20,371 bases of DNA from a virus. The translations under genes and the position numbers were made by a program. The DNA is taken from positions 1 to 20,371 of the IMG/VR virus record IMGVR_UViG_3300018424_000340. One strand, written 5' to 3'. Below, one piece after another: positions 1-16,713 of this stretch (positions within the stretch are counted from its first letter, which is position 1; every line of letters begins with the position of its first letter). The notes below the pieces were generated by a model, which ran no database searches, was not told where the DNA came from, and saw only the letters and a list, made by a program, of their open reading frames with translations.

Positions 1-3000
1 CCGCTTACTTCGGCATCTAGATAGTTTGCTGATTGTATATCAAGAGATCCGTCACTTTCAACAGGACGGAAAATTAAAACGTCTCCGTCGTTGACATAAA
101 TTCCTTCATCCGGAATAGGAATTGTAATTACGTTTGTGCTTCCATCACCAACAAACGATGTCATAATAGCATCATCGTTGGTTTGGTTTGACGTACCGTA
201 ATTTGGATCGTCTAATCTTGTTGTTTTTGTTTCACCTTTACGTCTAATATAGATATTGTAAATTTTTCCTGACTCAGGAACTTCAGGTAATACAAATTCA
301 TGGGTACTATCATCTGCGGCAATGTAAAAATCTTTACTGTTGCTTTCAGCAGTATCCCAACCTTCTGTAAACCACGGTAAAGCGTCCCATCCTGCGCCAA
401 CATCAAATGTAGCACCTTGAACAATTACACCGCCATAATCCATACCAGTAACTAACTGTGAATAATCTGTAGTAATTTCACTGCCATCATCTGGAATAGT
501 TTTATCAATACCAAGCATTCCGTCAGTTGGTTTATAGTATTTGTCAATTCTGTTTAAACTATCTAGTATTTCATCATTCTTTTCATACTTAATAGTAATG
601 ACTGAACCGTCTGGTGCGGCTGTTAACAGTGTTAATCTTCCTTTTAATACTGTTATGTCATTAATAACTTTAGTATAAAGTGTAATATTGTAATCACTAA
701 CAAACTGTTGTTGTGAATCAACAAAAACTGTGATAGCACTCTTGTCAAGTGTGCTAGGATATTTAAGATCAAACGTTGTTAGTCTACCAGTTCCTGTAAA
801 TGTTTCAGTTTCAATAAACTTTTCGTTAGAACTATATGATTTAAATGTTGGTGTTTTACTATATCTATCAAATTTAATTGTATTATGGAACAATCTTGCC
901 TTGCTGTTTCCTATTCTAGCAACAGCTTTAGCACTAAACTGTGTTTGCGTTCCAACACCGCCAACAATTTCAACAGTAGGAACACTAGTATAGCCACTTC
1001 CAAAGTCTGTTAAAACAATTTTAGTAACTTTTCTATTAGAAATATATGCTTTTGCTTTTGCGCCTGTTCCGCCGCCGCCTGAAATAATAACTTGAGGGAC
1101 ACTTGAATATGTGCTACCTTGATCTGTAAGTATAATATCTGTTACTTCAAATTTGTAATTGTTAAACCATTCGTTCCATGGTTTCAAATCAATTTGAGTA
1201 TCACCAAGTTTTACAGGGTTAATAGTATTAGTATCAATATTGTAATATGGAGGTAGATCAAAATCTGATACATTTGAATTTGTATCTTCTATATTTTGAT
1301 ATCTACTTGTAAAGTTTCTAATTTTAGTTCTGTACGGTTTTACTTCTTCAATATATGCTTGATATGCCGCTAGATTATCGCTACGGAAGTTAAGTTTTTG
1401 TTTTAAGTAACCAACATTATGAATAGCGTTCAAGAAACTTGTCTTAAATGCCCAGTCAACATATAATTGTTCACTGAATACATAATGTATATTAACAAAA
1501 AACAATTTATTCCAATAACCGTCTAACTCATCAATAAACACATTATACTTCATAGCGTTTAGAATGTTTCTAAACTCTTTAGCCGCACTAGTATCATATC
1601 TATTGCTGTCATATGTTTGTGTTTTGTCATAACCAACAGATTCAGTTTCGGTATTGTAAAACTTATTAATAATTCTAAGGGTTCCGTTTTCTCTACCAAC
1701 AAGATTAAATTTTCCTTTAATCTTTGGATCTTTATCAGTACGTTGAAGTACTGCCCAACCACCTGAACCAAAATCATCAAGTCTTAATAATTCGCCTTCA
1801 TCTAGTGTTACTTCATTTTCTGCGTATAAACCAGGCAATGTTTCTTTGATTCTACTATCTTCCGAAAAGCCTTCTGACCACCAATCAATAGTTTCCCAAT
1901 ATTTTGTAGTATCAAATTCTTGTGTAGCCACTCTTGAGAATTGTTGCTCTCTAACACTCCAAGCATAGATGCTCCAAAAGCCGTCTACAGTACTATCAGA
2001 TTGTACTAGCACACTATAAGGTCTAACAATAGCATTCGCTGTTAAATATTTCTTACCGTTATTAGTAACTGTTACACTTGTAATTCTACCAAAACTATCA
2101 ATTGTTGCTTCAGCTGTGGCTCCTTCACCTGTACCTGTAATGGTAATTAATGGAGCTCTTCTATATCCGAAGCCTGGATCATCAATTTCAATGGTATTAA
2201 CATGACCGTTGATAACATTTACTGAAAGTTTAGCATCTTTAATAGTTGATGTTGTTTGGAATCTTAATTCAGCTTCTGTATTAATTTTTACATCGTAAAG
2301 ATTTTTAACTTCACTAGGTTCTTTATCAATCATGTTTAAGAATTCATAATCGATTTCATCTGCTAGTGGTAATGTATATAATGCTTCGTTAATAAAATCT
2401 ATTGTTTGTTCAACTGCTTTATTTCTATTAACAAATATGGTTTGTCTCGGACGACTTGCTGTACCATATTTGTTTTTGTCTGATAAATTAGGATCAGGAA
2501 TTTGATTTCCAAGAATATCACTTCCTACAAGACTGTCAATCCACTTTCTTTCAAGATCATTATTTGGATCTTGTTTACTTTCTTCTGTAGCAAGAACATA
2601 TTCGTTATGAATTAGATTAACGTCTTGACTATTTTTATAGAACTGTATGTTAACACTAAATTCATCGTAATCTAATAAGCTCTTGAGGTTGCTTATTGTA
2701 AGTTTGTCGTTGTCTACAATGTAAGCAAAAGGAACACCAGCATTTTCTGGATTCGAAATATAATCAGAAACTTGACTTGCGGCTAGTGTTTTAGGACTAT
2801 TAATTTCAATATCTTGTTTATCCTTAACCCAGAAATAAAAACGTGTCTCTGAAATATTTCCGCTAATTGGATCAACCTTTTCTTTTATACTAAAAACACT
2901 ATCGTCTGGATGTAACGGAGTTCCTGTAATTGTTGGATCATCTGAATTTGTTAAACTAGCATATTGACTTGGTCTTAGTGTTGATTCGACCCATTGATAA

Positions 3001-6000
3001 ACATCAATTGAACTACCTTGTGCTGTACTATTCCAATTTCCGTTCCTAAATACTACATCAGATTGTTCATAAACAAGATATTTTACTTTTGATGTATCCC
3101 ACCAAATTTTTCCGACCTGCTTATCTGTCCAATGTTGTGATTCATCTTTGGTTGTTAATTCTTCATTATTAGATTCTGTATAAACAGCAGGATCAAATGG
3201 TGTTTTAAAATCAATATTTTGTTCTACAATACCAAGTATCTTTCCTTTATAAGAATCAACAACATCTATGTCAGCAATTTTTGTATAAGTTTCTTTTTCA
3301 TATGCCGCAAGATTTCTAATTTTAGAAACATCAACTTGATTAGTTTGATTTCTAATAACAGTCCATGGTTGAATACCTTCTTGTTTTTCGTACTTTTGTA
3401 TTCTACCAATAACTACTTCGCTGAATGCTGGATCTGCTGATAGATATTTTGGAGAACCTACGATAATAGTATTGTTACTTGTAGCAATTGAACGGCCAAA
3501 ATCTTCATTAAAACTTAAATCATCTTCAAAAATTTCACCGAGAACCCACTTACCACCGTATTCGTTAAACACAAATACCTTACCTGTTGTTCCTAATGGA
3601 TCAGCAAAGCCGGTTATTTCTCTATCAAACTTAGTTTGATCAGTATCAAATGTAGTTGTTTCAAATGTTTGAGCACCTTCTGCTGAAACTGCTAAAGTTT
3701 TGCCATCAGGAGAAACACTTATATTCGATCCAAATCTTTCATCAAAGTCATTTGTGTTTGATTGAATTTTTTGATTTAGTACAAATTTATTCTGACTCCA
3801 GTTGAATACAAAAACCGATCCTTGATCTCTTTCATTTTTGTCTTCGTTTGGAGCGCCAACAAATAATGTATTCCCGTCCGCTGATAATGTTACTTTGTAT
3901 CCAAACACATCACCAGGATTTAAACTTGAAACGTCATTCTTGTTAATTTGTTGAACAAATTCATAAACTTTGTTAGCATTTTTCTTGTATACAAATACTA
4001 CGCCTGTTCTTGGCATTCCTGTATTTTGTACAACAACCCATTTATTATCTACTTCAGGAGCATCATCAATGCTTGTTAAACTCGAATCACTATCAAGTTC
4101 ATAGTATTTGTTATTTCTTCTTACAACATCGCCCTGGACATAGGTTTCAGTTGCTCTCCATACACCTCTATAACTTTCAAAATTAGATGTATCAGCATAA
4201 GGAGCACTAGATACTAATACGTTTCCGTCATCTGTCATTGATATACTGGATCCGAACTTATCTCCAATATCAATATTTTCAACTTGCTCGTCAGCTGTTC
4301 CTTGTTCAAATGACGATCCGTCATCAACATAAGCATAAACATTAGGAACAATATCTCTGTTAACAGTATTTGTTTCGTCCCAGGAATCACTAATATCTGG
4401 AGTTGTTACTCCATCAGCTGTAAAGAATTCATTTGCTTTATAATAACCGCTACCATACCAAACAATACTTCCGCTAACATAACTTCTATTGATATCAAAT
4501 AATCCTACAAAAGAAGTATCTTGTAGCAATGTCCATTTATATCCGTTGTATGTGTAAAGATAAACTTTACCTCTGTCATCGCGGCTACCTGGAGCAGAAA
4601 CTGCCATGTAGTAACTTTCGTCAACAGCACCAATACTAGTTCCAAGTATTTTAATTTGGTCTCCGATAACGTATCCAGAGCCTGCTACACTAATTGTAGT
4701 GTTATATGCTCCATCTTTTCTTTCAACGTTAAAGATTGCGCCGGTTCCTGGATTTGATACATCTTCCGGACTAACGTCTAAGAATGTTCCTGATCCACTA
4801 GCAGGAGTTCCTGTAAATTCAATACCTATTGCCGCTGTTCCTGTATAAGAGAAGAATTGAATTTCACCTTCTCTTTTAGTTGGGAAAGGTCCTACTTGTC
4901 CGTCGTCAGTAACTTGATTTACTCTAATTGTAATATCATTTTCAGGTGATAAACCGCCTACTGTATTTCCAGGGATTACTATAACAGTTCCTGTAGTATA
5001 CGTAATTAAATTTCCGCTGTTGTCTTTTTCGTCCCAATCGACCCAGTTACCTGTTCCAAAATTAGGATCGTTAGTATCATCTATATATTTTACATTAAAT
5101 GGGAATCCAGAAACTCTTTCCCAAAACTCAGGTGATCTATCAGGAAATATAGTTTCGTAAGAACTATAAGCAGTTGCATCTGTGCCAGGTGTGACATTTG
5201 TTACTGTTTTTAATACATTCCAATATTGAGAACTATTAGCAGGAAACTTAACTACATCACCTTCATAATATGTTGATGTACTATTCCATACACCTTTATC
5301 AATATTTGTATCTTTGATACAAGCATAGAAGAAATTATTGAATCTTACAATACTTCTTTGCTTATATCCATTACCTGGTTGTACTTTTACTGCTCCGTCC
5401 TGTCTAAGTCTTACATTATAAACATCTTTGTTTTTAGTAACAGTAAACAATGCTGTTTCAGATACTGGAGTACTAACAATTCCTGTAATATTATTAAATG
5501 TATCAGCACCTAAAATTGAACCATTTTCGTCAACGGCTTTAACAACAATTACAATATCGTTATTAGATGTACCTGATGCTGGTTGCCCGCCTACTCTAGT
5601 TCCTTGAATGTATAATCTATCTCCAACAGTGTATCCTGATCCTCCAGTTCTTACACTAACATCATATGTTGGTATACCTGTTGATCTTGTAATATCAAAT
5701 GTAGCATTAATACCAGAACTACTAACATCAATGCCGCTAACATTTTCAAATAGAGCATCATTTAAACCACTTGTTCCGTCTGACTTAACAGAAATAATTC
5801 CACCAACAGCATCAATTTCATTTACAGTTAGTGTTACATCGCCGCTGGTTCCTTCAATACCTTCTAGTTTTCCTATTGAAACAGAAGCGCCAAAATTTTC
5901 ACCATGTGCTTGTCTTGGACTTACTAAACTATTTCGTAATATCCATTGGCCGTTTGAATACTCATAAATGTCAACACCACCTTGTCTAGAATATCCTTTA

Positions 6001-9000
6001 TTTGCTAAAAATAATTCTCCTCCAAGTGGGTTTGCTTGTGGTAATTCAACTGGTTTCCAATCTTCGCTTGAAAGATCAATACTACTTCCATCACCAAATA
6101 CTCTTACTTTTGCTTCATATAATTTTCCAGCATACAATACAGTATCACCTGGTTCGTAGTTAGCATCTGGATCAAATTTTTCTTGATAGTTGCTTGGAAT
6201 ATAACTTGCTTTTGGTGATCCAACAACTAACCAACGCCCATCTTTACTTGCTGTAAGTACTTCAGCATACGCACCTAAGTAAGCAGATTGTAATCCGCTT
6301 TTTGGCGTAAGAATTTGTAAAGGTATTAAACCTGATTCTCCGTCTGAATAAACAACTACAGCTGAGTCTCTAATGACGTCGCCAGTGGTGACCGGCGCAC
6401 CGGGGTTACCTACAATAGTTTGATTTAATTCAGGAACAAACGACACAGCACTACCAGTTCCGGTTGGGAAAGCAATACCGTATTCTGAAATTTGTGTTAC
6501 TTTATATTGTTTGTTTCTTTCTACTACTTCCCAATTTCCGTTATCTTCATTTTTATCAATAAAAACTTTAGAACCGACTGGTAGTTTAGCAAAACCTTTG
6601 TTTACTAGTTCTTCGTAAGATGCTACTCGTACACTTTCAAAATAACTTATAAAAGAAAATGAGCTTTCGTCAACTTCTGGTTCTTCTCTAAATCCTGTAA
6701 TAGCAATTATAATATCTGTAAGTGTTACGCCAGCAATTTGGAAAAATCCGTTTAGTCCCTGGACCCCAGTTATTCCAACAATTTGTCCTACTTTAAAGTC
6801 ATGTACTCTATTACATTTTAAAACCAATCTATCAACATCTGGTGCTTCAACATCATATATTGAAACGTTACTAATAACATATCTATAAACATTCCACGAT
6901 CCTGGCTCAAATGTTGTCCAGACGTTGTCACCATGTTTAAAATTATCAAACGGAACAGTATTATCTAAAAGTTCGGTTAATTCATTTCTTATAAACTGTA
7001 CATCACTTGAAAATATGTAACCTGCTGAATTAACAGGAACCTCAAACCTTTTGGTAGGGAATTTAAAACTTGTATTTGCTAATTGATAATCATTATCATT
7101 TAATAAAATATAGTTTTGAAAATCGACTACACTAAATTCGCTACCATTTAATAAAACTGGTTGCGGATTTAATTTAAAGTCACTTACTTTTAAATCAAAC
7201 TCAACTTCGTTAATTTGATCTGTGCCGCCAATTGAACCTAATCTAAATGCCCATTCTTCGTCTAGCACTATTTTATCATCGTCAATTTCGCTGACTTTAT
7301 CAAAAACTTTTTTAATTGCGTTATTGGAGCCTTTTTCTCTACTAAAGCCTTGATACAACTTAAATTGTGATACTGTATCTTCAGCAATTTCCTGTAGATA
7401 TTCTCTAGGTTGAAAACCTACTGTATGTCTTGCTAGTTCTTTTTGCTTTGAATCTATTCCTTCAATGCTGGTTTCGTAATAATCTTCAATTTGACTTATT
7501 CTATAATCAAAGTTTGGAACCAAACCTGACTCAGGAAGGTTATCTAATAGATCCCAATATGATCTATCAAATTTGTCTGTACCCTTTTGAAACTTTTTAC
7601 TTACATAATAAAATTCTTTAAATTGTACAATGTCACCAATTTTGTAATCTGTAAATTTTTTCCAAGAGCTAATGTTTACTCTATCAAATATAAATCCTGG
7701 AGAAGTATAGTTACCATCCCAATCGACGGTTCTAAATCCTTTACTCTTAATTCTTTCTTGTCTATAACCAGGTCCTTTATCAAAAAGAACATCATTAAAA
7801 ACAGTCTTGTCATCAAAAATAGTAACGTGTTCTTTTTGTATATAATTAATTTCAGCAAAATATATTCCTTGAGTATTATCCTGCGGAGAAATTAGTAATT
7901 CATTAATTCCTCTATATACATCAATATCAGTAGCATCTATTTTTGTGCCGTCAGCTTTTAAAATATTATAATCATAAAAACTATCAAGAATGTTGTCTGC
8001 TACAGAACCAATATTTTGGAATCGCAATAAAGTTGCTCCAGGACTTACTGAAAGTATACTTCCTACTGCCCAGTTATGTGTAGTCCAGAAAAGAAACTCT
8101 TTGACTGATGTTTCCCAATTTTGTACAACACCAAGTTCTTCATTATATTGATCAAAAACCATCCCTTGGGAATTAAGGAAAGCTCCATAACCTAATAAGA
8201 AATCAACAACTTCTTGTACATTTCCAAATACATGATCATAATTTAAAGTAAGAGTATCGACTTCATTGAACTTTGTTCTCTTGATTGCTCTTGCTCCGCC
8301 GGTAATTGGAACATTGTCTATTGCTGTCCAAAAATTAGCGTCAAATATTTCTCCAGACGTATGTGCTTGTATTGCTCTAAAAAATTGATTTTGATTTCTT
8401 ACTAACGTTCCTTTTGAATAAAAAGATTCAGCACTCCAATCAACAAAGCCTTCACTTACACCGCCGACATCTAATACAGGATCATTTTGCTGAGCAAAGA
8501 AACTAAAGTAATTAAAAATCGAATTTAATTGATCGTAACCGCTTACTTTATAGCCGCCAGCAACTCTTTCAATTAACACACCGCTGTATCTTGTTGTAAA
8601 CTGAGGAGAACTAGAATTAAAGAATATTTCATAGTTTTCTGTTGGAACAAAAATACCAGTTTGTGTACTTTGAGGATTTTTACTATCTAAAAGATATTGC
8701 TGTTGAGCTTTATCAACAAACCCTTTCATTCTTGTGCTTAATTGAATGTCTAAGTTTTCGTACAAATCAATTATATCTTGTTTTGTTTTAGCGTTTGATT
8801 TTAGATAGTTTACAACAAAGCAAACCAATCCATCTGATCTAGAAGTAGAATTTACAGCCCTGATAATATCATCATTTGTTAAAAAAGTATTTGTAGTTTT
8901 ACTAACAAGTTGTCCTACATTGTTTTTCTTAAAAATATTTCTATCTAGGTTTAAACTAATAGTTTCGAAAGGTCTCAACAAACATGCCGCAATTATTTGA

Positions 9001-12000
9001 GCATAAGGATAAACACTGCTACGTCTCCACGCATGTTCAACCGGAGATATATCTCCAAATGAAAAGTCTGCTGTATAATCAGTTGAATAATCAATAATAC
9101 TGTCTGATTCTAAAGGAGTTAATAAATTACCATCTTTATCAACAGGCAAAAATTCTAATAATCTCGGACGAATATATCTTTTATGGGTTCCTGCTCTTTC
9201 GCCATGTCTAATAATGCCGTCTCTAAGATCTTCCCACAATAATAAATTATTTGAAGTATATGGTGCTTGACCATACTCATCTTCCCACCAACTTGGTTTT
9301 TCTGTAAAACCTAACATCTCCCAAGGCGCGGTATGAGGAGTTTGGGTATCATAAAGATATTGATAAATGCCTCTCCAGTGTGCGGGCATTTTTTGTTCTC
9401 TTAAAATATCTAAATTTTGATTATATGTCCAAGTAAATTGATTTTCAGGATCATGATAAGCATTTTCATAGATATCAATATTTTTTACTAGAGGCCATCT
9501 CAAAAACTCTAGCTCTAAGATATCATCTACTTGCTTTTTAGTAAATGTTCCTGTGTTTTCGTATCCGCCAAATAAACTGTCAATATCTAAAATTTCAGGA
9601 TTATATTTTTGTTTAATATTATTATAAATTCTTTTTTCAAACTCTAGTACTAACTCATCTCTAAAATCATCATAAGCAACAGTTAAACTACCATCGTGTC
9701 CTCTGATTAATTTTTGAGGTTTAGCAAACGTATTGTCAACAAAAATTCTTGGAACCCAAGATTTTGTTAATCCTAAACTTGTTGGTGTTTCAGGAATAAA
9801 TGTAAATGACGTTGAATAAAATTCTTTAATTTCTAACAGTTCGCCTTCATTTAAATCTCTAGTAATTCTAACAAAACTAAACTCGCTGTCAAAAACATAA
9901 TCTACACCGTGTACTAATTGTACATTATCTATATAAAGGTATACTGCTTTAGTCGACGCTGTTTCTAAATCAAACTTTTCAGTTAGAGAAAATGTTTTAA
10001 TTCCAGTATCTTCGACAGTATACTTTGTCGTTTTATTTGCTCCGCTACCAATCATATCACTATTAGAATATGGATTAGTTTCAGGCTTTACTCCGCTAAT
10101 TTTAGAAATTATTGTATCTAAGAAAGAAACTACATTCTCTCCGTCAAATGGCAATGTTATTGATAATTTTAAGATATTACTTTTATAATTTTCATATTCT
10201 CTTGCTGCATATCTTAATGACTTAACAATATTAATATTTTTATCACACAATAACGGTAACGAAGTTGCCGCAACAGAAATATATTTTAAGAATCGCTGTC
10301 CTCTATGTTGATAACCTGCTAGATCTCTAAGATTGCTTTCACCTGGAAACTTCCCTGAAAACTCATCAGTGTAATCGACCATTGATCTTAAATGATCAGT
10401 TGCTTGTCCTAGTGTAAAAGAATTAAGTTCTTGATTTAAGGGATTTCTTTCTAGATTTTTAGGAAATTCATAAAATCCTAAATTAGGTTCATCATCCGAA
10501 AATACTTTAAGAGTTACAGTATCCCCTGCTGAAAAATCTATAGTATCAAAACTAAATGTTCTCTTGCCTTCGATTGTAGAAACTACAGTAAATGTGTCTC
10601 TAATAAATTCTCCATTTTTGTAAAAATATAATTTTGGATTATTCGATTTTGACCAATCAACATTTGAGAATGTAACTTCATTCGAATCTTGTTCGAGTGT
10701 AAACGCTTGTACTATTCCTTGATCAAATACAGGATCACTAGCAATGTACAAGTTATGAAAACTAAAATTATCTAAAGTTTGTGTTGTTTTAATATATCCA
10801 GAATTAATTTTTTTCGATTTGTTTTCAGCATTAACTTGATATGTAAACGAATCGTAGTCCCAATTAGATTGAAATTCAATATCACCACTGTTGTTTAAGT
10901 TTTGATAAGATATAGAAAAACCAAGTTCACTATCAACCGGGCCTGTTCCAACTTTATATGATACTAAACTACTACCTTCAAAAGATGAAGTTTCATATTT
11001 GTCGGTGTTTGAAAAACTTACTCCGTCATCATCAAATACATCAAACTTAGGTGATTGGTTTACTGAATTTTTAGTTTGGCTTTTGATCCAATTCTCGCCA
11101 TCATAGTGATACATTAATCCGGCATTATTTTTTCCAAATCTAATAATTACACCTTCGCCTGGGTTTGTTTCTGTGTCATCGGCTTCAACTAGTGCTATTT
11201 GTGTATTATCAGCAGTATTGTTTGCTTGTATGACAATTTTTTTAACAACAAAAATTTTATTTTTTACTAGCGGATCATTATCGGCAGTAAAAATAATTCT
11301 TGCTCCGTCAAAAACATCTACGTTATCGATATTATAACCTGCTGTTCCTTCAATAGATGAAAAAACATCGGTAGTAAAATCATCAATAAAATCAACACTT
11401 TCTTTAGCTAACGCACAATGATTAATAAGTTGTATATTTGAATTAAACTCAATAATAGGTCGTTTTGCTCTATTTGTTTCTGATGTTCTTGGTGCTACTT
11501 TGTTAATTTCAGCACTGTAATTAATAACATCTTTATGGAACCATTTATTATAACGACTCCATGGATTTTTATCTTGACTTGATCTATTAATTGTAATATA
11601 GTCTTTGTTTGAAGGGAAACTTACAGCATCATCAAAGGGTAATTCATCCCAGCCGCCATCGTCAAATAAAACATCAACATCGTCATTTTTTACAGGTGGT
11701 AGATCGAGTTCTTGAAAACTTACCAACTTAATTGATTCGCCTACGCCGTCAACTAACCAATCTCCTTCTGAATATTTTTCTGGAGTTACCTGTCCTGTAA
11801 AATTAACCTTTAAACCATTTGTAAATTTTATACCATTAGAGCTTGTGTAATTTACTTTTCCTATTACATCTGTTTCAACATTAATTTTAGTATTTTCATC
11901 TATAGATGAAATTCTAAACATACCAACTCTATCAATATTATTTGAACTTTGATAGTATAACACATCTGGACTATTATTAGGTACAGTAAATGTTACTGTG

Positions 12001-12701
12001 CCAACTTCAATACCGTTATTTGTAACGCCATCGTTATAATTTGCTATTGATCCTTGTGTTGGATTTCTTCTGATATAAAAAGGATCGCCAGGAGTATTAA
12101 CATTAAAAATATATGTCTGACCTCTATATAGAGTTAGACCAGGATTAGGTGTTAGTCCGTCGGGGAAAAATATAAATTCGTTTTCGCCTTGGCTTCTAAC
12201 CCTATACTCTGAAATAATATCTTGGCCTTGACCACTAACACTGACAGCATCAGGACCTTGCGGCAACCAATAGTATTCTCTATAGTTAATAAACTTGTCC
12301 CAATTAATAGGAGGATTCCAACTATAACTTCTTAGTCCTGTAGTTAGGTCGTCTCTTTCGTTATTGTTGTTAAAAAACTTTAATTGGTTTTTTACATCAA
12401 TATAATCGTAGAAACTATTAACAGATAAATTTTCTTTATCTCTAATAACTACACCAGGTTCTAATTGATAAGCATGCCTTAAAGATTCTTCTTTGTCGAT
12501 ATAGATGTCTTTACTGTTATAGGTTCTTCCGTAATTACGACCTATATAACCTGAAATTCTATCAAGTGTGCCAGGTTGTACTAAAGGATCTAGTGCGGCA
12601 CTTAAAAACTTTCTGTTTGTTGAAGATTTAAAAATCTCTGGCAGTAAGTTATAAGTTTCTCTAACAGGTAATTCACTCTGTTTGAATATTTTCTTATCCA
12701 T
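1..12701 (-). CDS. Giant baseplate/tail structural protein, at least 4233 residues, 3' end outside window
   Basis: The frame opens with ATG at 12701-12699, sharing one base with the gp6 stop (TAATG), with a weak GAG nine bases upstream, so translation is probably coupled to gp6. I followed the frame from the start to about residue 290, through many interior stretches and over the last 1200 bases, and found no stop. The C-terminus lies beyond the left edge. By position it replaces T4 gp7 (1032 residues) and perhaps later wedge genes. Seen from N to C: an N-terminal region with FYDYIDV and REYYWLP; a beta-sandwich-like region (188-256); a tryptophan-rich segment (about 1117-1157); two CBM5/12-like modules (1422-1462, 1680-1722); a seven-bladed FG-GAP propeller with insertions (about 2071-3104); a segment with VGKIWWDTSKVKY (near 3195); GxGY beta repeats (3500-3560, 3853-3926); and YYKPTDGMLG near 4054. 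No signal peptide, protease or enzyme motif was recognised. Virion structural role is likely; exact position in the virion is inference. Confidence -1.
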   Translation of the reverse strand, partial: MDKKIFKQSELPVRETYNLLPEIFKSSTNRKFLSAALDPLVQPGTLDRISGYIGRNYGRTYNSKDIYIDKEESLRHAYQLEPGVVIRDKENLSVNSFYDYIDVKNQLKFFNNNNERDDLTTGLRSYSWNPPINWDKFINYREYYWLPQGPDAVSVSGQGQDIISEYRVRSQGENEFIFFPDGLTPNPGLTLYRGQTYIFNVNTPGDPFYIRRNPTQGSIANYNDGVTNNGIEVGTVTFTVPNNSPDVLYYQSSNNIDRVGMFRISSIDENTKINVETDVIGKVNYTSSNGIKFTNGLKVNFTGQVTPEKYSEGDWLVDGVGESIKLVSFQELDLPPVKNDDVDVLFDDGGWDELPFDDAVSFPSNKDYITINRSSQDKNPWSRYNKWFHKDVINYSAEINKVAPRTSETNRAKRPIIEFNSNIQLINHCALAKESVDFIDDFTTDVFSSIEGTAGYNIDNVDVFDGARIIFTADNDPLVKNKIFVVKKIVIQANNTADNTQIALVEADDTETNPGEGVIIRFGKNNAGLMYHYDGENWIKSQTKNSVNQSPKFDVFDDDGVSFSNTDKYETSSFEGSSLVSYKVGTGPVDSELGFSISYQNLNNSGDIEFQSNWDYDSFTYQVNAENKSKKINSGYIKTTQTLDNFSFHNLYIASDPVFDQGIVQAFTLEQDSNEVTFSNVDWSKSNNPKLYFYKNGEFIRDTFTVVSTIEGKRTFSFDTIDFSAGDTVTLKVFSDDEPNLGFYEFPKNLERNPLNQELNSFTLGQATDHLRSMVDYTDEFSGKFPGESNLRDLAGYQHRGQRFLKYISVAATSLPLLCDKNINIVKSLRYAAREYENYKSNILKLSITLPFDGENVVSFLDTIISKISGVKPETNPYSNSDMIGSGANKTTKYTVEDTGIKTFSLTEKFDLETASTKAVYLYIDNVQLVHGVDYVFDSEFSFVRITRDLNEGELLEIKEFYSTSFTFIPETPTSLGLTKSWVPRIFVDNTFAKPQKLIRGHDGSLTVAYDDFRDELVLEFEKRIYNNIKQKYNPEILDIDSLFGGYENTGTFTKKQVDDILELEFLRWPLVKNIDIYENAYHDPENQFTWTYNQNLDILREQKMPAHWRGIYQYLYDTQTPHTAPWEMLGFTEKPSWWEDEYGQAPYTSNNLLLWEDLRDGIIRHGERAGTHKRYIRPRLLEFLPVDKDGNLLTPLESDSIIDYSTDYTADFSFGDISPVEHAWRRSSVYPYAQIIAACLLRPFETISLNLDRNIFKKNNVGQLVSKTTNTFLTNDDIIRAVNSTSRSDGLVCFVVNYLKSNAKTKQDIIDLYENLDIQLSTRMKGFVDKAQQQYLLDSKNPQSTQTGIFVPTENYEIFFNSSSPQFTTRYSGVLIERVAGGYKVSGYDQLNSIFNYFSFFAQQNDPVLDVGGVSEGFVDWSAESFYSKGTLVRNQNQFFRAIQAHTSGEIFDANFWTAIDNVPITGGARAIKRTKFNEVDTLTLNYDHVFGNVQEVVDFLLGYGAFLNSQGMVFDQYNEELGVVQNWETSVKEFLFWTTHNWAVGSILSVSPGATLLRFQNIGSVADNILDSFYDYNILKADGTKIDATDIDVYRGINELLISPQDNTQGIYFAEINYIQKEHVTIFDDKTVFNDVLFDKGPGYRQERIKSKGFRTVDWDGNYTSPGFIFDRVNISSWKKFTDYKIGDIVQFKEFYYVSKKFQKGTDKFDRSYWDLLDNLPESGLVPNFDYRISQIEDYYETSIEGIDSKQKELARHTVGFQPREYLQEIAEDTVSQFKLYQGFSREKGSNNAIKKVFDKVSEIDDDKIVLDEEWAFRLGSIGGTDQINEVEFDLKVSDFKLNPQPVLLNGSEFSVVDFQNYILLNDNDYQLANTSFKFPTKRFEVPVNSAGYIFSSDVQFIRNELTELLDNTVPFDNFKHGDNVWTTFEPGSWNVYRYVISNVSIYDVEAPDVDRLVLKCNRVHDFKVGQIVGITGVQGLNGFFQIAGVTLTDIIIAITGFREEPEVDESSFSFISYFESVRVASYEELVNKGFAKLPVGSKVFIDKNEDNGNWEVVERNKQYKVTQISEYGIAFPTGTGSAVSFVPELNQTIVGNPGAPVTTGDVIRDSAVVVYSDGESGLIPLQILTPKSGLQSAYLGAYAEVLTASKDGRWLVVGSPKASYIPSNYQEKFDPDANYEPGDTVLYAGKLYEAKVRVFGDGSSIDLSSEDWKPVELPQANPLGGELFLANKGYSRQGGVDIYEYSNGQWILRNSLVSPRQAHGENFGASVSIGKLEGIEGTSGDVTLTVNEIDAVGGIISVKSDGTSGLNDALFENVSGIDVSSSGINATFDITRSTGIPTYDVSVRTGGSGYTVGDRLYIQGTRVGGQPASGTSNNDIVIVVKAVDENGSILGADTFNNITGIVSTPVSETALFTVTKNKDVYNVRLRQDGAVKVQPGNGYKQRSIVRFNNFFYACIKDTNIDKGVWNSTSTYYEGDVVKFPANSSQYWNVLKTVTNVTPGTDATAYSSYETIFPDRSPEFWERVSGFPFNVKYIDDTNDPNFGTGNWVDWDEKDNSGNLITYTTGTVIVIPGNTVGGLSPENDITIRVNQVTDDGQVGPFPTKREGEIQFFSYTGTAAIGIEFTGTPASGSGTFLDVSPEDVSNPGTGAIFNVERKDGAYNTTISVAGSGYVIGDQIKILGTSIGAVDESYYMAVSAPGSRDDRGKVYLYTYNGYKWTLLQDTSFVGLFDINRSYVSGSIVWYGSGYYKANEFFTADGVTTPDISDSWDETNTVNRDIVPNVYAYVDDGSSFEQGTADEQVENIDIGDKFGSSISMTDDGNVLVSSAPYADTSNFESYRGVWRATETYVQGDVVRRNNKYYELDSDSSLTSIDDAPEVDNKWVVVQNTGMPRTGVVFVYKKNANKVYEFVQQINKNDVSSLNPGDVFGYKVTLSADGNTLFVGAPNEDKNERDQGSVFVFNWSQNKFVLNQKIQSNTNDFDERFGSNISVSPDGKTLAVSAEGAQTFETTTFDTDQTKFDREITGFADPLGTTGKVFVFNEYGGKWVLGEIFEDDLSFNEDFGRSIATSNNTIIVGSPKYLSADPAFSEVVIGRIQKYEKQEGIQPWTVIRNQTNQVDVSKIRNLAAYEKETYTKIADIDVVDSYKGKILGIVEQNIDFKTPFDPAVYTESNNEELTTKDESQHWTDKQVGKIWWDTSKVKYLVYEQSDVVFRNGNWNSTAQGSSIDVYQWVESTLRPSQYASLTNSDDPTITGTPLHPDDSVFSIKEKVDPISGNISETRFYFWVKDKQDIEINSPKTLAASQVSDYISNPENAGVPFAYIVDNDKLTISNLKSLLDYDEFSVNIQFYKNSQDVNLIHNEYVLATEESKQDPNNDLERKWIDSLVGSDILGNQIPDPNLSDKNKYGTASRPRQTIFVNRNKAVEQTIDFINEALYTLPLADEIDYEFLNMIDKEPSEVKNLYDVKINTEAELRFQTTSTIKDAKLSVNVINGHVNTIEIDDPGFGYRRAPLITITGTGEGATAEATIDSFGRITSVTVTNNGKKYLTANAIVRPYSVLVQSDSTVDGFWSIYAWSVREQQFSRVATQEFDTTKYWETIDWWSEGFSEDSRIKETLPGLYAENEVTLDEGELLRLDDFGSGGWAVLQRTDKDPKIKGKFNLVGRENGTLRIINKFYNTETESVGYDKTQTYDSNRYDTSAAKEFRNILNAMKYNVFIDELDGYWNKLFFVNIHYVFSEQLYVDWAFKTSFLNAIHNVGYLKQKLNFRSDNLAAYQAYIEEVKPYRTKIRNFTSRYQNIEDTNSNVSDFDLPPYYNIDTNTINPVKLGDTQIDLKPWNEWFNNYKFEVTDIILTDQGSTYSSVPQVIISGGGGTGAKAKAYISNRKVTKIVLTDFGSGYTSVPTVEIVGGVGTQTQFSAKAVARIGNSKARLFHNTIKFDRYSKTPTFKSYSSNEKFIETETFTGTGRLTTFDLKYPSTLDKSAITVFVDSQQQFVSDYNITLYTKVINDITVLKGRLTLLTAAPDGSVITIKYEKNDEILDSLNRIDKYYKPTDGMLGIDKTIPDDGSEITTDYSQLVTGMDYGGVIVQGATFDVGAGWDALPWFTEGWDTAESNSKDFYIAADDSTHEFVLPEVPESGKIYNIYIRRKGETKTTRLDDPNYGTSNQTNDDAIMTSFVGDGSTNVITIPIPDEGIYVNDGDVLIFRPVESDGSLDIQSANYLDAEVS
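924..1145 (-). repeat. GxGY-type beta repeats, second array
   Basis: Residues 3853-3926 read VTDIILTDQGSTYSSVPQV, then a glycine run with GTGAKAKAYI, then VTKIVLTDFGSGYTSVPTV and EIVGGVGTQT. Two near-identical units stand in tandem (TDIILTDQGSTYSSVPQV and TKIVLTDFGSGYTSVPTV), so internal duplication is clear. Confidence -1.
2022..2204 (-). repeat. GxGY-type beta repeats, first array
   Basis: Residues 3500-3560 contain VNTIEIDDPGFGYRRAPLIT, a GTGEGATAEATI linker, then GRITSVTVTNNGKKYLTANA. The pattern is I-x-I...GxGY...P-x-I-x-G, GxGA, G-x-I-T-x-V, which recurs in the array at 924-1145. Such repeats are known in tail fibre and structural proteins of marine phages; they suggest a beta-rich stalk. 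Confidence -1.
4026..4160 (-). repeat. CBM5/12-like module, copy 6, inserted in propeller blade 4
   Basis: Residues 2848-2892 read WRATETYVQGDVVRRNNKYY and close with NKWVVVQ. It falls between the VSSAPYAD strand and the GVVFVY strand of blade 4, the same loop used by copy 3 in blade 2. Confidence -1.
4374..4502 (-). repeat. CBM5/12-like module, copy 5, between propeller blades 3 and 4
   Basis: Residues 2734-2776 read FDINRSYVSGSIVWYGSGYY then KANEFF, and close with SDSWDE. G-S replaces the usual G-D and the opening Trp is Phe. The module lies in the linker joining blade 3 to blade 4. Confidence -1.
4626..4742 (-). repeat. GSGY/GD/GT beta module, copy 3
   Basis: Reads AIFNVERKDG, YNTTISVAG, then GSGYVIGDQIKILGTSIGA. 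It aligns closely with copy 1, for example GSGYTVGDRLYIQGT against GSGYVIGDQIKILGT. Directly after it the propeller sequence resumes with YMAVSAPG, so this module marks the end of the insertion in blade 3. Confidence -1.
5112..5288 (-). repeat. CBM5/12-like module, copy 4, inside the blade 3 insertion
   Basis: Residues 2472-2530 open with VWNSTSTYYEGDVVKF, then QYWNVLK, and close with PEFWERV. The spacing before the last Trp is longer than in the other copies. Confidence -1.
5340..5462 (-). repeat. GSGY/GD/GT beta module, copy 2 (degenerate)
   Basis: Reads ALFTVTKNKD, YNVRLRQDGAV, then PGNGYKQRSIVRF. It keeps the xFxV and YxVxxR strands and a GNGY turn, but has lost the GD and GT-GG positions seen in copies 1 and 3. 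Confidence -1.
5586..5705 (-). repeat. GSGY/GD/GT beta module, copy 1
   Basis: Reads ATFDITRSTG, then YDVSVRTG, GSGYTVGDRLYIQGTRVGG. The aromatic-Val strand, GSGY turn, GD and GT-GG turns recur in copies 2 and 3 at regular order, about 40 residues each. It lies within the insertion in blade 3 of the propeller. Similar GSGYxxGD repeats occur in phage tail proteins; a structural spacer or arm role is inference. Confidence -1.
6048..6176 (-). repeat. CBM5/12-like module, copy 3, inserted in propeller blade 2
   Basis: Residues 2176-2218 read DPDANYEPGDTVLYAGKLYE and close with SEDWKPV. The module sits between the VVGSPKAS strand and the GGVDIYEY strand of blade 2, so it would project from a loop of the propeller. 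Confidence -1.
7539..7664 (-). repeat. CBM5/12-like module, copy 2
   Basis: Residues 1680-1721 read WKKFTDYKIGDIVQF, then FYYVSKKF, closing with SYWDLLDN. This is one of the best matches to the W-Y-GD-V-Y-W signature in the window. It lies between copy 1 and the propeller. Confidence -1.
8316..8438 (-). repeat. CBM5/12-like module, copy 1
   Basis: Residues 1422-1462 read WSAESFYSKGTLVRNQNQFF followed at the end by FWTAID. This fits the CBM5/12 signature of an opening Trp or equivalent, YxxGDxV, a second aromatic strand and a closing Trp. Here G-T replaces G-D. It lies upstream of the propeller. Sugar binding is inference from the motif only. Confidence -1.
9228..9350 (-). other. Tryptophan-rich conserved segment of the giant protein
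   Basis: Around residues 1117-1157 the protein reads PHTAPWEMLGFTEKP, then SWWEDEYGQAPYTSNN, then LWEDL. The density of Trp, Pro and Tyr and its low-ambiguity motifs make this the best search probe for relatives. It resembles segments I know from large structural proteins of marine T4-like phages. No function is assigned. Confidence -1.
11934..12137 (-). other. Cupredoxin-like beta-sandwich segment of the giant protein (tentative)
   Basis: Residues 188-256 contain LTLYRGQTYIFNVNTPG, FYIRRNP, NNGIEVGTVTFTVP and DVLYYQSSNN. The order and the LYYQ strand resemble phage domains ending in LYYQCxxH, a cupredoxin-like arrangement. Here Cys is replaced by Ser and no His follows, so metal binding is not expected. 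The relation is from recalled motif shape only. Confidence -1.
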
Positions 12702-15700
12702 TAATTTTTACTCGTCTTAGTTATAACCTGTGAGTTGAGCAAATTAAGTTCAGTTGCTGTAATTGTGTCTACAATTTGAATATCATCAACTGTTGCTGCA
12801 CTTACTAGGATTTCATCTGGTCGAGATTGTATCTCACTTAAACTTCCGTATGCTTGATCTTCTTGTTTTGGAACCATTACAATGTTACTAATTTCTGGAG
12901 AATTAGCCTGGATAATATATGCTAGTAGTTCACTTGAATAAAACTTATCACCAAAGTCCCAATTTTCAATTGAAAAATAATTTGCTATTGTTACAACAAT
13001 TTTAACTTTTAAATCATTATCGTTAACTACCATATTTTTGTTCTTTACAACTTTAAATTTTGTTTGAAATTCTGTTGGCGCTTTTGTACCAAATAATGGA
13101 AAATATGTTACAGGATGATAAACAATTTCATCACTAATAGTTTTTAAATCACTTAGTTCTGATCCAAATTGAATTCTTAAACTTTCAGGTGTAGGTTCTT
13201 CAGGAGCAGATGCTGATGCTCCTATTAGGAATTTTCTATAGTTAATATCATAGTTTCTAATCAATAGATATACATCAATTATATTACTGGAACTTGGATC
13301 AATTCTTCTGCTACTACTAGCATTATGAATATACTGGAACTTAAGACCGCTACGTCCAACATAAGCAACATAGCTCGGCTCAAGAATAAATGTTCTGGTA
13401 ATTAAATCAACTCTTTTAACAAAATTTTCTGCTTGATCATAAAAATATATTAATTGATTATGTTCATAATCATTAACACTTGTATTAACTTCTTTGTCTT
13501 TGATTAATACAGTATTGGTATCATTATTAATAAATTCTAACTGTGTAAACCCAAAATTATCAGTTGATTTTTTAAAGAACAAATATTTGTCTGTTAGATC
13601 TGTTCCTACAATATCATCAAAACTATCAGGATTATCAATTACTCCATCATCGTCTGTGTCAAAAAATGTTATCTTAACACTTTCAGTACTTTGATATCCA
13701 TCTTCAAATCTAACACTATCAAAAATTTCAAATGAAACATCATTTTTTAGAGTTTTATCTTGATCAATAATAGCAGTAACATCGTCTGCTGTAAAATCAG
13801 GGTTTGTTGTTTTTAGTTCAACAATCTGAGTCGCTAGGTCAGCGGCCGAAATTTCTTTTCCTTCTGGAGTACTATTAATGTCTAAAACTTTAATTTGATC
13901 TTTAATTACTGTTCTTTTCTTACTGTCATAAATTTTTTCTGATCTATCAAAATAAAATCTATTTTGTTCTACACTACTAAAGATGTAATCAGTGCCACGC
14001 ACTCTTACTCTAAATTCATCACCGTCATATACAAATGCTAATAACCAACTAGCATCAGCGTTAGTATTTGTAGCATCGCCTGCTTGACCTAAACTAAAAT
14101 CACTTGCTAAATCAATATTAGTACTAGAAATAACTTTCCATGATCTAGTTTCAATATCATATCTTAGACCAAATGTTTGACTCGAAAAACTAAGATTTAG
14201 TATTTCTGTTTCTATATCTGTAGGTAAATTATTAACAAATTTAGGAACAACTTGTGATGGAATAGCCTCTGATGGAATAGGATCCGATAATGTAATTGGT
14301 CCTGTTCCATTAGATAGGTTTCCTTTGCCTGCGTTTGTGCCATCACCTACAACCCTAACTACTTTTGACCATAGATATTTTTTATGAGTTTTATCTGTAG
14401 GATCGTATGTTACAAGTTCACCGTCTTTAAATGCTTGTGTAGTTAACGGTGGTAAAAATTTAATTAAACTGCCTGCTTCTATAAAACGCAAGTTGCTTGA
14501 AGTGTATATGCCAACCTTAATCGGAAATTCATCAAATATGTTTCCAAAGTAACCTGTAGAAGCGTTAGCATCGGTAGTTGAACGTAACCACTTAACACTT
14601 ACATCACTAGTAAAGATTTTATCAAAATTTGTAATGTAAAAATTATATGTTTGTGAATCTTCAATAGCAGGTTCGATTGTATTTCTAATATAATTTAATA
14701 CAATATTTTTATTGGTAAATGTATAACTGAAATTTCTTTCAGTATCGGTTCTATAAATTAAACCATCATCGGCAAAAACATTAACCATGGAATATTTTCC
14801 ACTAGCATCAACAATATCAAAATTTCTACTAATACCACTAGATGTTCTGTTAATTGCTTTTACTTTTAAAATTTCTTGTGAACTACTTAACGGAGCAAGA
14901 TTATAATCTTCTCCAGTAACCATTCTATTTTGTGTATAATATTGAGCCGGTGCTTTTGTTCTAATTGATTCTACGTCTTCTGACGGAGCACTATTATCTA
15001 CTGTATACTGTAGATTCATTGTAAGTGTAAGTGTATGTGTTACACCTAACGCATTTTCGTATTGAATATCAATACCGACATTTCTCATATCTCTTGGAGA
15101 TATGCTATAACTAGAACCTATAGAGGTTCTAAAATAACATCTAAATGTTCCTTGTGGAAGATTTCCAAATGTTCCGTCCGAAAATAGCAAATCAACTGTA
15201 TCGTTTTCTTGTGTAATAACAGTATAGATATTTTTTTGATTTCCAGTTAGACTGTTATAAATGATATTGTTGCCTTCAACAGAATCAACCTTTGTCCATA
15301 GTGTTTGAGGATTATCATTCGAATCTAATTGATATAACCAAACATCACTATTGTTAATGCCTGGTGTTGTAATTGACACTTGTTCATTAACAGTTGGCTG
15401 TATTACTTGGAATTCAGCACTTTCGAGTGTTCCTTGTTTAAACATCATAAAGAAACCGGTATTAGCACTTGCGTTACCTCTGCCATCTTGTCTGTATATA
15501 AATCCTAATTTATTACCAGGTAGAGGAGTTTCTTCATATATGTAATCATAGTTTAAAATAGATGTACTTGGAATTTCATAACGCATAGATCTTCCTGCTG
15601 TTGTTTTTGAAAAATTAAACAGCGGAATAGCAGTATTTGTACTATTAAATCTATATTGATCTGTTTTTATTCCATCAATAACTTTAGAACCTTGATCTTT

Positions 15701-16213
15701 ACCAAACTCAGTATTGGTTATCATTGATGCGTTTAAAATCGCAATAAATTGTTCAAACCAATTGGGGTTTGTAGGATCATTCCATTGTATTGTTTGTCCA
15801 GCTAAATTAAGACCATTGCTATCAGTTAACTGTTCTGTTGTAGACACAGAAGTAATTTTCAGTAAACCGTTTGCTCCAACATTACGTTTAGCATTGTAAG
15901 AAAGCATACGAGCAATACGTAATACACTTTCTTTGCGACTTGCTAGTTCAATGAAATTTTCTCTACTGTTTAGATCAAGCCTAAACGATAAACTTTGTCC
16001 TAAGAAAGCAATTAAATCAATTAGAGCAACATACTCTGAGCTTTCTATAAAATCGTTAAAATCTTCTGGATAATTTTCACGCAGATAATCTACCATAACA
16101 CGACGTAGATTTTCAAAGTCGTAAGATTTAAAATCAGCATTACGGAACGTCTGATAGATACGTGTCCAGTCTTCCGCAAGTATTAAATTATTTTGTCTTG
16201 TTGTAGTTGTCAT
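12701..16213 (-). CDS. 6: Baseplate wedge protein gp6-like, enlarged
   Basis: Gp6 dimers build the inner ring of the T4 baseplate wedge, bridging gp25, gp53 and gp7. The N-terminus (residues about 15-115) has the gp6 signature YDFENLRRVMVDYLRENYPE, EYVALIDLIAFLGQSL and SRKESVLRIARML. Residues near 430 contain VTGEDYNLAPLSSSQEIL, a baseplate J/gp6 hallmark. The C-terminus contains SSSRRIDPSSSNIIDVYLL, IENWDFGDKFYSSELLAYI and DEILVSAATVDDIQIV, close to the T4 gp6 end. At 1170 residues it is much longer than T4 gp6 (660), with extra sequence in the middle, including a calcium-loop motif. The start ATG is preceded by AAGG twelve bases upstream and a TAAATA box. Its stop overlaps the next start as TAATG. 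Identification is firm. Confidence -1.
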   Translation of the reverse strand: MTTTTRQNNLILAEDWTRIYQTFRNADFKSYDFENLRRVMVDYLRENYPEDFNDFIESSEYVALIDLIAFLGQSLSFRLDLNSRENFIELASRKESVLRIARMLSYNAKRNVGANGLLKITSVSTTEQLTDSNGLNLAGQTIQWNDPTNPNWFEQFIAILNASMITNTEFGKDQGSKVIDGIKTDQYRFNSTNTAIPLFNFSKTTAGRSMRYEIPSTSILNYDYIYEETPLPGNKLGFIYRQDGRGNASANTGFFMMFKQGTLESAEFQVIQPTVNEQVSITTPGINNSDVWLYQLDSNDNPQTLWTKVDSVEGNNIIYNSLTGNQKNIYTVITQENDTVDLLFSDGTFGNLPQGTFRCYFRTSIGSSYSISPRDMRNVGIDIQYENALGVTHTLTLTMNLQYTVDNSAPSEDVESIRTKAPAQYYTQNRMVTGEDYNLAPLSSSQEILKVKAINRTSSGISRNFDIVDASGKYSMVNVFADDGLIYRTDTERNFSYTFTNKNIVLNYIRNTIEPAIEDSQTYNFYITNFDKIFTSDVSVKWLRSTTDANASTGYFGNIFDEFPIKVGIYTSSNLRFIEAGSLIKFLPPLTTQAFKDGELVTYDPTDKTHKKYLWSKVVRVVGDGTNAGKGNLSNGTGPITLSDPIPSEAIPSQVVPKFVNNLPTDIETEILNLSFSSQTFGLRYDIETRSWKVISSTNIDLASDFSLGQAGDATNTNADASWLLAFVYDGDEFRVRVRGTDYIFSSVEQNRFYFDRSEKIYDSKKRTVIKDQIKVLDINSTPEGKEISAADLATQIVELKTTNPDFTADDVTAIIDQDKTLKNDVSFEIFDSVRFEDGYQSTESVKITFFDTDDDGVIDNPDSFDDIVGTDLTDKYLFFKKSTDNFGFTQLEFINNDTNTVLIKDKEVNTSVNDYEHNQLIYFYDQAENFVKRVDLITRTFILEPSYVAYVGRSGLKFQYIHNASSSRRIDPSSSNIIDVYLLIRNYDINYRKFLIGASASAPEEPTPESLRIQFGSELSDLKTISDEIVYHPVTYFPLFGTKAPTEFQTKFKVVKNKNMVVNDNDLKVKIVVTIANYFSIENWDFGDKFYSSELLAYIIQANSPEISNIVMVPKQEDQAYGSLSEIQSRPDEILVSAATVDDIQIVDTITATELNLLNSQVITKTSKN
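13625..13660 (-). other. EF-hand/dockerin-type calcium-loop motif in gp6
   Basis: Residues 852-863 read DTDDDGVIDNPD. Asp occupies positions 1, 3, 5, 9 and 12, Gly position 6 and Ile position 8, the pattern of a Ca2+ loop. It lies in the part of gp6 that T4 lacks. Calcium binding is inference. Confidence -1.
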
Positions 16214-16269: not shown

Positions 16270-16713
16270 TTAACGTTCTTCTGTTCTCTTATCAAAACGT
16301 ATTTTCAACTGCTCAGTAGCGTTAAAATGTAAGTATTCTAGATCTACTTCTAGCATAATACCTTGATCTGTTGGATCAACAGATACGTTCCTTGCCTTAA
16401 CTCGAGGATCTCTGTTTATAATCTCTTCAACGTCTTTTATAATAAGATCAACATTTGTCTGGGTCATTGGTTCGAATATCATATCCCATATGATTGTACC
16501 AAATTCAGGAAGTTGTAGTTTTTCGCCTTTTCTAATATGAAAGTGATTTAGAATATCTTGTTTAACTAGATCTAAATCATACTGCTTAAAACTGTTTCCT
16601 TTATTTCTAGAATTAAATCCTTTATATCTAAACTGAGATCCTTCAGCTGATACAGATCCTGTACTTGCTTGTACAGTCTGTACTTTTTGTTGGTTGTATA
16701 TCTTTCTAGCCAT
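16270..16713 (-). CDS. 25: Baseplate wedge protein gp25-like (sheath initiator)
   Basis: Gp25 (132 residues in T4) is the wedge core protein that starts sheath assembly by donating a strand to the first sheath ring. This 147-residue protein carries the GPW/gp25 fold. DLVKQDILNHFHIRKGEKL and LPEFGTIIWDMIFEPMT match the family core, followed by EEIINRDPRVKARNVSV, where RDPR stands in for the conserved EPR turn, and VDLEYLHFNATEQLKIRF. The first 35 residues are polar and family-specific. The start is fixed by a strong GGAGG six bases upstream. It begins one base after the gp5 stop. Identification is firm. Confidence -1.
   Translation of the reverse strand: MARKIYNQQKVQTVQASTGSVSAEGSQFRYKGFNSRNKGNSFKQYDLDLVKQDILNHFHIRKGEKLQLPEFGTIIWDMIFEPMTQTNVDLIIKDVEEIINRDPRVKARNVSVDPTDQGIMLEVDLEYLHFNATEQLKIRFDKRTEER

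Follow-up and report, generated by a model that had tools for sequence, protein, structure and literature searches.

A predicted seven-bladed FG-GAP propeller in a giant baseplate-region phage protein marks one branch of the relatives compared

We analyzed a single viral record of 20,371 bases (IMGVR_UViG_3300018424_000340; hereafter the window), whose open reading frame (ORF) listing gives five consecutive genes, all on the minus strand. The largest, at 3-12701, encodes a giant virion structural protein of 4233 residues that is truncated by the contig end (phrog_10938, E 4.5e-289), and embedded in it is the subject of this report, a predicted seven-bladed FG-GAP_2 propeller with inserts (residues ~2072-3120; 3342-6488, minus strand), delineated by PF14312 and a strand map. 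The genes before the giant encode a gp6-like baseplate wedge protein (12701-16213; phrog_10646, E 3.7e-285), a gp25-like baseplate wedge protein (16270-16713; PF04965, E 2.9e-10), a gp5-like baseplate hub/spike protein (16715-18385; phrog_13211, E 4.7e-32) and, farthest upstream, a virion structural protein (18382-20370; phrog_11190, E 1.7e-21) with a GTG-started ORF from 20286 and a frame that is open up to the contig end. The giant is 4936 residues long in the relative L007 (loci compared here carry L numbers), whose propeller is 100% identical to that of the window.

An earlier note on this DNA had placed seven FG-GAP units, the number needed to close an integrin-alpha-type propeller, at 3390-6485 (minus strand, residues 2073-3104 of the ORF); a propeller is predicted there, with the slightly wider extent given above. 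Of the two Pfam families the note had named, PF14312 (FG-GAP_2) matches the ORF at 57.9 bits (E 1.2e-15; cut-off 23), with two stretches passing individually, but PF01839 is not listed at E ≤ 1. Among 40 homologous propeller regions, a set outside which the window itself falls, PF14312 was found at E ≤ 0.01 in 36 and PF01839 in only two. A genome search with FG-GAP_2 located single units at 3804-3920, 3450-3530 and 4188-4265, which correspond to blades 5, 7 and 4, the last scoring below the cut-off. Blades 1-3 went unrecognised in such scans; blade 1 has no FG letters, and blades 2 and 3 are interrupted by a module of ~65 residues and by ~417 residues, respectively. The integrin cation motif, D.[DN].[DN]G, occurs nowhere in the 4233-residue ORF. 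When searched by tblastn against 50,697 phage records, the window propeller had no match at E 1e-5 and the L022 propeller none at 0.01.

Two profiles of the repeat unit were scored against relatives and controls. The first was built from units of L007, L006 and L018, which score 23.9-40.6 bits by construction; in held-out rows it gave 23.1 and 7.4 bits for L022 and 15.7 bits for L032, with a maximum of 4.2 bits in 150 shuffled proteins. The second was built from 185 units of at most 30 residues from 27 rows of alignment A6, positives among those rows being so by construction, and none of 174 shuffled proteins exceeded 8 bits with it (maximum 2.8). Unlike the window giant, the phrog_10938-type giants of eight cultured phages (RaK2, 121Q, GAP32, PAC2/PA5oct, SCTP-2, Atu_ph07, Phosso and Vibrio phage 2.275.O), which are homologous carriers at ~24-30% identity by tblastn, have no FG-GAP propeller unit: the first profile found none above 3 bits and the second none above 8 bits at the propeller site. 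Seven sequence units each were counted by hand in L022, L032 and L080.

The propeller fold is well supported by the predicted structure of a compact homologue, L052 (647 residues; identity to the window in alignment A6, 37%), which was modelled with 57 rows and reached a predicted local distance difference test (pLDDT) score of 88.2 and a predicted template modelling (pTM) score of 0.89 (model md654ae0f52a4). Among its 41 DSSP strands, 28 were assigned to seven blades of four by our own reading of the DSSP line, made without coordinates; 27 of the 28 map cleanly onto the window, the exception being the D strand of blade 3, and blade-strand occupancy over the 57 rows was 0.86-1.00. Residues 27-613 of the model aligned with solved propellers. 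When the model was compared with the PDB by Foldseek, all 50 rows listed were integrin alpha chains (best E 4.3e-13), and the best VIA match was integrin alphaL (5e6u_A; Z 31.6, root-mean-square deviation 3.0, 359 aligned). Fold matches in BFVD included many giant-virus proteins and, from uncultured Caudovirales, proteins with FG-GAP or YHYH in their names. By this homologue model, the window region is predicted to form a closed seven-bladed propeller; the 28 strands and the hand counts in homologues agree with the proposed seven units, and the proposed integrin-alpha-type fold is borne out as well, though the DxDxDG motif is absent.

In order along the protein, and all on the minus strand, the strand map places blade 1 at residues ~2080-2134 (6300-6464), blade 2 at ~2138-2262 (5916-6290), with a module within its B-C loop, and blade 3 at ~2264-2730 (4512-5912), divided between strands A and B and with the D strand least certain. 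Blade 6 follows from the same map (~2985-3059; 3525-3749), and blades 4 (~2811-2921; 3939-4271), 5 (~2927-2982; 3756-3923) and 7 (~3062-3120; 3342-3518) from the map together with the single-unit scan. Two candidate CBM5/12-like carbohydrate-binding modules (CBMs) lie in the B-C loops of blade 2 (residues 2169-2233; 6003-6197; PF02839, E 2.7e-4, 21.3 bits) and blade 4 (residues 2841-2896; 4014-4181; PF02839, E 1.9e-4, 21.8 bits; cut-off 26.2 for both). Between blades 3 and 4 is a module (residues 2731-2799; 4305-4511) that looks CBM-like by eye and has no Pfam match alone, and the A-B loop of blade 3 holds the ~417-residue insert (residues 2277-2693; 4623-5873), which contains GSGY-type repeats. 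A CBM5/12 match by Pfam also falls in the giant's core, outside the propeller (residues 1422-1460; 8322-8438). Over the whole ORF PF02839 reaches 40.7 bits, above its cut-off of 26.2; when six candidate fragments were searched alone, two of the propeller scored 21.3 and 21.8 and two of the core 25.6 and 13.2. The remaining two, propeller fragments that look CBM-like by eye, did not match it; one had a weak hit to a cupin model and the other had no hit. CBM_5_12 was found at E ≤ 0.01 in 27 of the 40 homologous propeller regions.

In integrins, the B-C and D-A loops make the upper, ligand-binding face, and we assigned loops to faces by this topology. Among 27 close rows, each at least 35% identical to L052, loops of over 25 residues were counted as long. 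The blade 2 B-C, blade 3 D-blade 4 A and blade 4 B-C loops are long in all 27, the blade 6 B-C loop in 26, the blade 4 D-blade 5 A loop in 22 and the blade 7 B-C loop in one; on the opposite face long loops occur only at blade 3 A-B and blade 3 C-D, in four rows each. The loops kept long by nearly all close relatives are thus predicted to share one face. In the window, the inserts amount to 481 residues on the lower face versus 325 on the upper, for which one big insert accounts; the blade 3 A-B loop is counted there at 418 residues. The blade 6 B-C loop (residues 3013-3036; 3594-3665, minus strand; from the alignments) carries a TTFD...T motif with at least 90% conservation; the motif is conserved even though it sits in a loop, and the L052 loop is too short for it.

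Core relatives of the giant in IMG/VR numbered at least 581 when ranked towards the window and at least 575 when ranked towards RaK2. The best 80 of each were kept, some contigs falling in both sets (for example L147/L088, L149/L090, L164/L051 and L203/L062); as both sets are ranked, they give no estimate of propeller frequency in the family. An FG-GAP unit above 8 bits was present in 65 of the 66 first-set loci with both flanks (three or more units in 42) and in 31 of the 65 such second-set loci (three or more in 15). Removal of L046 (X letters) and L114 (a duplicate) left 64 first-set loci, whose propeller regions range from 466 to 1743 residues. Alignment A5 took 39 of these (plus L022) and A6 took 53 (plus the window, L006, L008 and L022); the 11 outside A6 are L045, which duplicates the window, and ten whose inserts are long.

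A tree of 127 rows, thinned of near-copies from 145 that all have both flanks (LG+G4, short search, midpoint root), contains one branch (SH-aLRT 100) that divides 90 propeller and three 'other' rows from 34 rows without a propeller, including all eight cultured giants. By parsimony, one change suffices when only 'propeller' and 'empty' are counted, four for the propeller label over all rows and nine for three states. The best units of the three exceptions inside the propeller clade, L106, L192 and L199, score 6.0, 6.5 and 7.4 bits, versus 2.8 for the best shuffle, and the sub-threshold units of L192 and L199 are plainly readable as FG-GAP. Within this sampling of the family, the propeller is the mark of a single branch, and no cultured phage turned up in that branch.

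The window propeller is flanked by NWEVVERNKQYKVT before it and PWTVIRNQ after it. In all five of the empty environmental rows inspected (L135, L138, L141, L155 and L162), the site instead holds a short W.VY...W...R stretch, which we infer to be a hairpin; no such pattern is apparent in RaK2, GAP32 or 121Q, where the site is empty with almost nothing between the flanks. The inter-flank length is ~1,320 residues in Atu_ph07 and Phosso, 277 in SCTP-2, 109 in PAC2 and 41 in Vibrio phage 2.275.O, and the turn at the propeller site looks like a general insertion site of the giant. In Atu_ph07 (L036) the site holds GSGY-type repeats; the Phosso insert (L040) is known by its length alone. A LamG-like domain suspected by eye near the site in SCTP-2 was not reported by Pfam.

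Propeller-bearing giants sit in records of 200,843 and 199,328 bases, and a 335,231-base contig that was binned with a metagenome-assembled genome (MAG) encodes a giant with FG-GAP units; some of the propeller-bearing phages are therefore probably jumbo-sized. A T4-type Gp23 capsid protein was found in nine of 15 family records searched, and a psbA-type gene, sought as a hint to the host, in none of the 15, records that may be fragments. An FG-GAP unit above 8 bits occurs in six of ten MAG-labelled loci; the names of these MAGs (Pelagibacter, Rickettsiales and Neomarinimicrobiota, among others) may stem from the binning and are no evidence of host.

The earlier note had called the carrier a T4-like baseplate protein. 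A T4-type baseplate gene block is indeed present, and the giant lies directly behind the gp6-like gene as gene 7 lies directly behind gene 6 in T4, but homology to gp7 was not detectable: a 12-row core profile of the giant aligned with T4 gp7 by hhalign (single-sequence template) at a probability of 0.2%, and Gp7_helical, Gp7_5th and Gp7_6th, all of which Pfam finds in T4 gp7, were not found in the window ORF at E ≤ 1. Because the giant holds the place of gene 7 while gp7 homology and domains were undetected, we call it a baseplate-region protein by position and do not claim it as gp7 by descent. In six of the eight cultured propeller-less records, a gene annotated as baseplate wedge directly precedes the giant; in the other two, SCTP-2 and Vibrio phage 2.275.O, the preceding gene is annotated otherwise. 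In PAC2 a gene annotated as T4-like gp10 lies downstream of the giant, with two small genes between. Annotation and place suggest that the giant is present in the virion.

Other parts of the giant and its surroundings yielded several side observations. NCBIfam gave no match to the giant at E ≤ 0.1, and the best hits of a PDB sequence search (E 0.065 with the whole ORF, 0.039 with the 12-row core profile) were taken as chance or CBM matches. A domain of ~130 residues (residues ~160-295; about 11817-12224, minus strand) is 32-54% identical to cyanophage proteins, several of them annotated as tail fibre or 'baseplate wedge tail fiber connector', and by sequence appears to be a module in common with other carriers. 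At residues 3848-3937, a match to phrog_460 (head closure Hc2) falls on a GSGY-type repeat that also occurs at ~2354, 2674 and 3510; this match is probably to a mobile repeat module and not to head closure. The gp6 frame of one relative (L009:268-3782) is broken into two overlapping ORFs, probably by a sequencing frameshift.

Substitution ratios (nonsynonymous to synonymous, dN/dS) against four relatives were 0.086-0.142 for the blades and 0.089-0.154 for the N-terminal core; synonymous sites are near saturation, so all these ratios are rough. Higher values were obtained for the blade 3/4 module (0.085-0.331), for the segment immediately preceding the propeller (0.155-0.224) and, partly, for the 417-residue insert (0.119-0.214), and positive selection on the propeller was not seen in these four comparisons. 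Because blade dN/dS matches that of the core, the propeller appears to be maintained under purifying selection and not hypervariable.

Propellers in phage baseplates are known, as are FG-GAP proteins in cultured phages. A published report describes gp131C of the myophage PhiKZ (PDB 4GBF) as a propeller of seven blades at the edge of the baseplate and gives receptor binding or degradation of the cell surface as its presumed, unconfirmed role (PMC4901313). Compared by description, gp131C shares the seven-bladed propeller with the phage giant; it was not among the 50 rows listed in the Foldseek or VIA comparison with the PDB, which excludes nothing. The same report describes Gp45 of Staphylococcus phage phi11 as a five-bladed baseplate propeller linked to recognition of cell-wall N-acetylglucosamine (PMC4901313); unlike the insert of the giant, it has five blades and is a separate trimeric protein. 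The earlier note's author knew of no description of such a protein: no FG-GAP propeller in a phage baseplate protein was found in the open-licence literature, by title or abstract start, but PhiKZ gp131C is published and FG-GAP proteins already stand in cultured phage records. The main text of the RaK2 paper does not name ORF070 (PMC3622015), and that of the Atu_ph07 paper lacks the words hemagglutinin, FG-GAP and propeller (PMC6102473); passages of the MIJ3 paper give four virion proteins from mass spectrometry and describe none of them as a giant of the baseplate (PMC6892783).

The cultured records with FG-GAP proteins include Synechococcus phage S-MbCM6, whose 7,022-residue virion structural protein (YP_007001806.1) matches FG-GAP_2 at E 1.8e-40, has seven units by hand count and is likewise encoded immediately after a gene, T4-GC_106, whose annotation reads baseplate wedge subunit and which we took for gp6. 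Pfam reports one YHYH, two LamG and one FG-GAP_2 region in this protein (L128:780-21848). Because its core showed no match to the window giant by hhalign with a single-sequence template, its propeller is possibly an independent acquisition. In the related record of S-MbCM25, which names Synechococcus sp. WH7803, a propeller stretch of 421 residues is 100% identical to its S-MbCM6 counterpart. Elsewhere the units are stand-alone, in separate proteins and not as inserts in the giant: in gp054 of S-TIM5 (407 residues, annotated virion structural protein) by Pfam; in a 402-residue 'FG-GAP repeat protein' of Vibrio phage nt-1 by annotation and tblastn; in gp320 of Atu_ph07 (393 residues, annotated 'hemagglutinin'), an FG-GAP propeller by Pfam units and BFVD fold match; and in Phosso 129/130 by Pfam. 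Atu_ph07 gp320 (L127:3019-4200) adjoins a gene annotated as tail sheath. In Phosso, two hypothetical proteins of 3,162 and 3,692 residues (L125:4339-13827 and L125:13901-24979) hold most of the 42 FG-GAP_2 matches of the phage and are probably several propellers in a row.

Integrin alpha heads, which gave the best structural matches, likewise have seven FG-GAP-type blades. Some integrins have an alphaI domain set into an upper-face loop of the propeller, comparable to the modules in the upper-face loops of the phage propeller. Integrin blades carry a DxDxDG-type cation motif; unlike them, the phage propeller lacks DxDxDG, matches PF14312 and not PF01839 in the window, and is inserted in a phage structural protein. 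The relation is one of fold likeness, not of membership.

The reading we favour is that the decorated upper face makes contact with the host surface or with another glycan, to which we give an even chance and which we rank above an internal docking role. We infer that the giant would be a peripheral component of the baseplate wedge, in about six copies, from which the propeller would project; the upper face of the propeller, with the CBM5/12-like modules, would bind a ligand on a surface, a glycan being the likeliest, and the wedge itself would thereby help to seat the phage on the cell, either ahead of sheath contraction or while it takes place. The layout would resemble an integrin alpha head, with the propeller as platform and the binding element in the upper loops, without the cation sites. 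Host contact, which the earlier note had raised, is plausible; the blades are under purifying selection like the core.

Several observations weigh against this reading. The assignment of the giant to the baseplate comes solely from gene position; PHROGs names phrog_10938 'virion structural protein' in the category 'head and packaging', and a second stretch of the giant matches the head-closure family phrog_460. All individual CBM matches in the window fall under the Pfam cut-off, and its largest insert lies on the face opposite to the conserved loops. Receptor-binding tips are often fast-evolving, in contrast to these slow blades, whose dN/dS is slightly under that of the N-terminal core in all four comparisons. 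The fold itself is touched by the direct AlphaFold model of the window region (seven rows), which was poor (pLDDT 44.8, pTM 0.48), with blocks above 70 mostly within the last three blades. Together with the failure of single-unit scans to recognise blades 1-3, this model would fit chance or degenerate repeats that form no closed propeller. We regard that as highly improbable, since the 37% identical homologue gives a closed seven-bladed model at pLDDT 88.2 whose blade strands map to the window, strand occupancy is high across the 57 rows and none of the 174 shuffled proteins passed 8 bits. WD40 propellers follow close behind integrin in the VIA comparison (Z up to 30.4), and the preference for integrin over WD40 comes from the FG-GAP sequence and from Foldseek's order.

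That WD40 match, typical of scaffold propellers, also suits a different role, in which the propeller is an internal docking platform that holds an adjacent protein of the wedge, pin or fibre, with the extra modules as mere spacers. Propellers often serve as docking platforms, the blades are as conserved as the core, and three upper-face loops that are long in all 27 close rows would fit a fixed protein interface. Set against this are the CBM5/12-type modules in 27 of the 40 regions, the wide variation of insert length by lineage (regions of 466-1743 residues in the 64 loci) and the similar wedge block that does without a propeller in the six cultured records with a wedge-annotated gene before the giant; we consider docking quite possible, if somewhat short of probable. 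The CBM5/12-type modules, present within the propeller and in the core, could instead mark a general glue for environmental particles or sugars (aggregates, mucilage, chitin-like matter) and not a specific receptor binder, but we think this improbable. On the favoured glycan-contact reading, a wider proposal can be put forward that we hold to be rather unlikely as a whole: a single ancient insertion of an integrin-type propeller into a wedge protein would define a large uncultured, T4-related and partly jumbo branch, in which the upper face would be a socket for CBM exchange between lineages, comparable to the place of the alphaI domain in integrins, and host contact would reside in the wedge and not only in separate fibres.

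New here are the insertion together with the empty form of its site, the division of the family by one branch and the conserved, mostly one-sided decoration. If the favoured reading is true, the wedge of these phages would bear an adhesive head of its own, and a large lineage without cultured members would be set apart from its cultured relatives by one domain insertion; the propeller would then serve to mark the lineage in sequence data and, as one domain that can be expressed by itself, allow attachment tests without phage culture. Even if it is a docking platform only, a giant baseplate-region protein can grow via a whole domain in one short turn.

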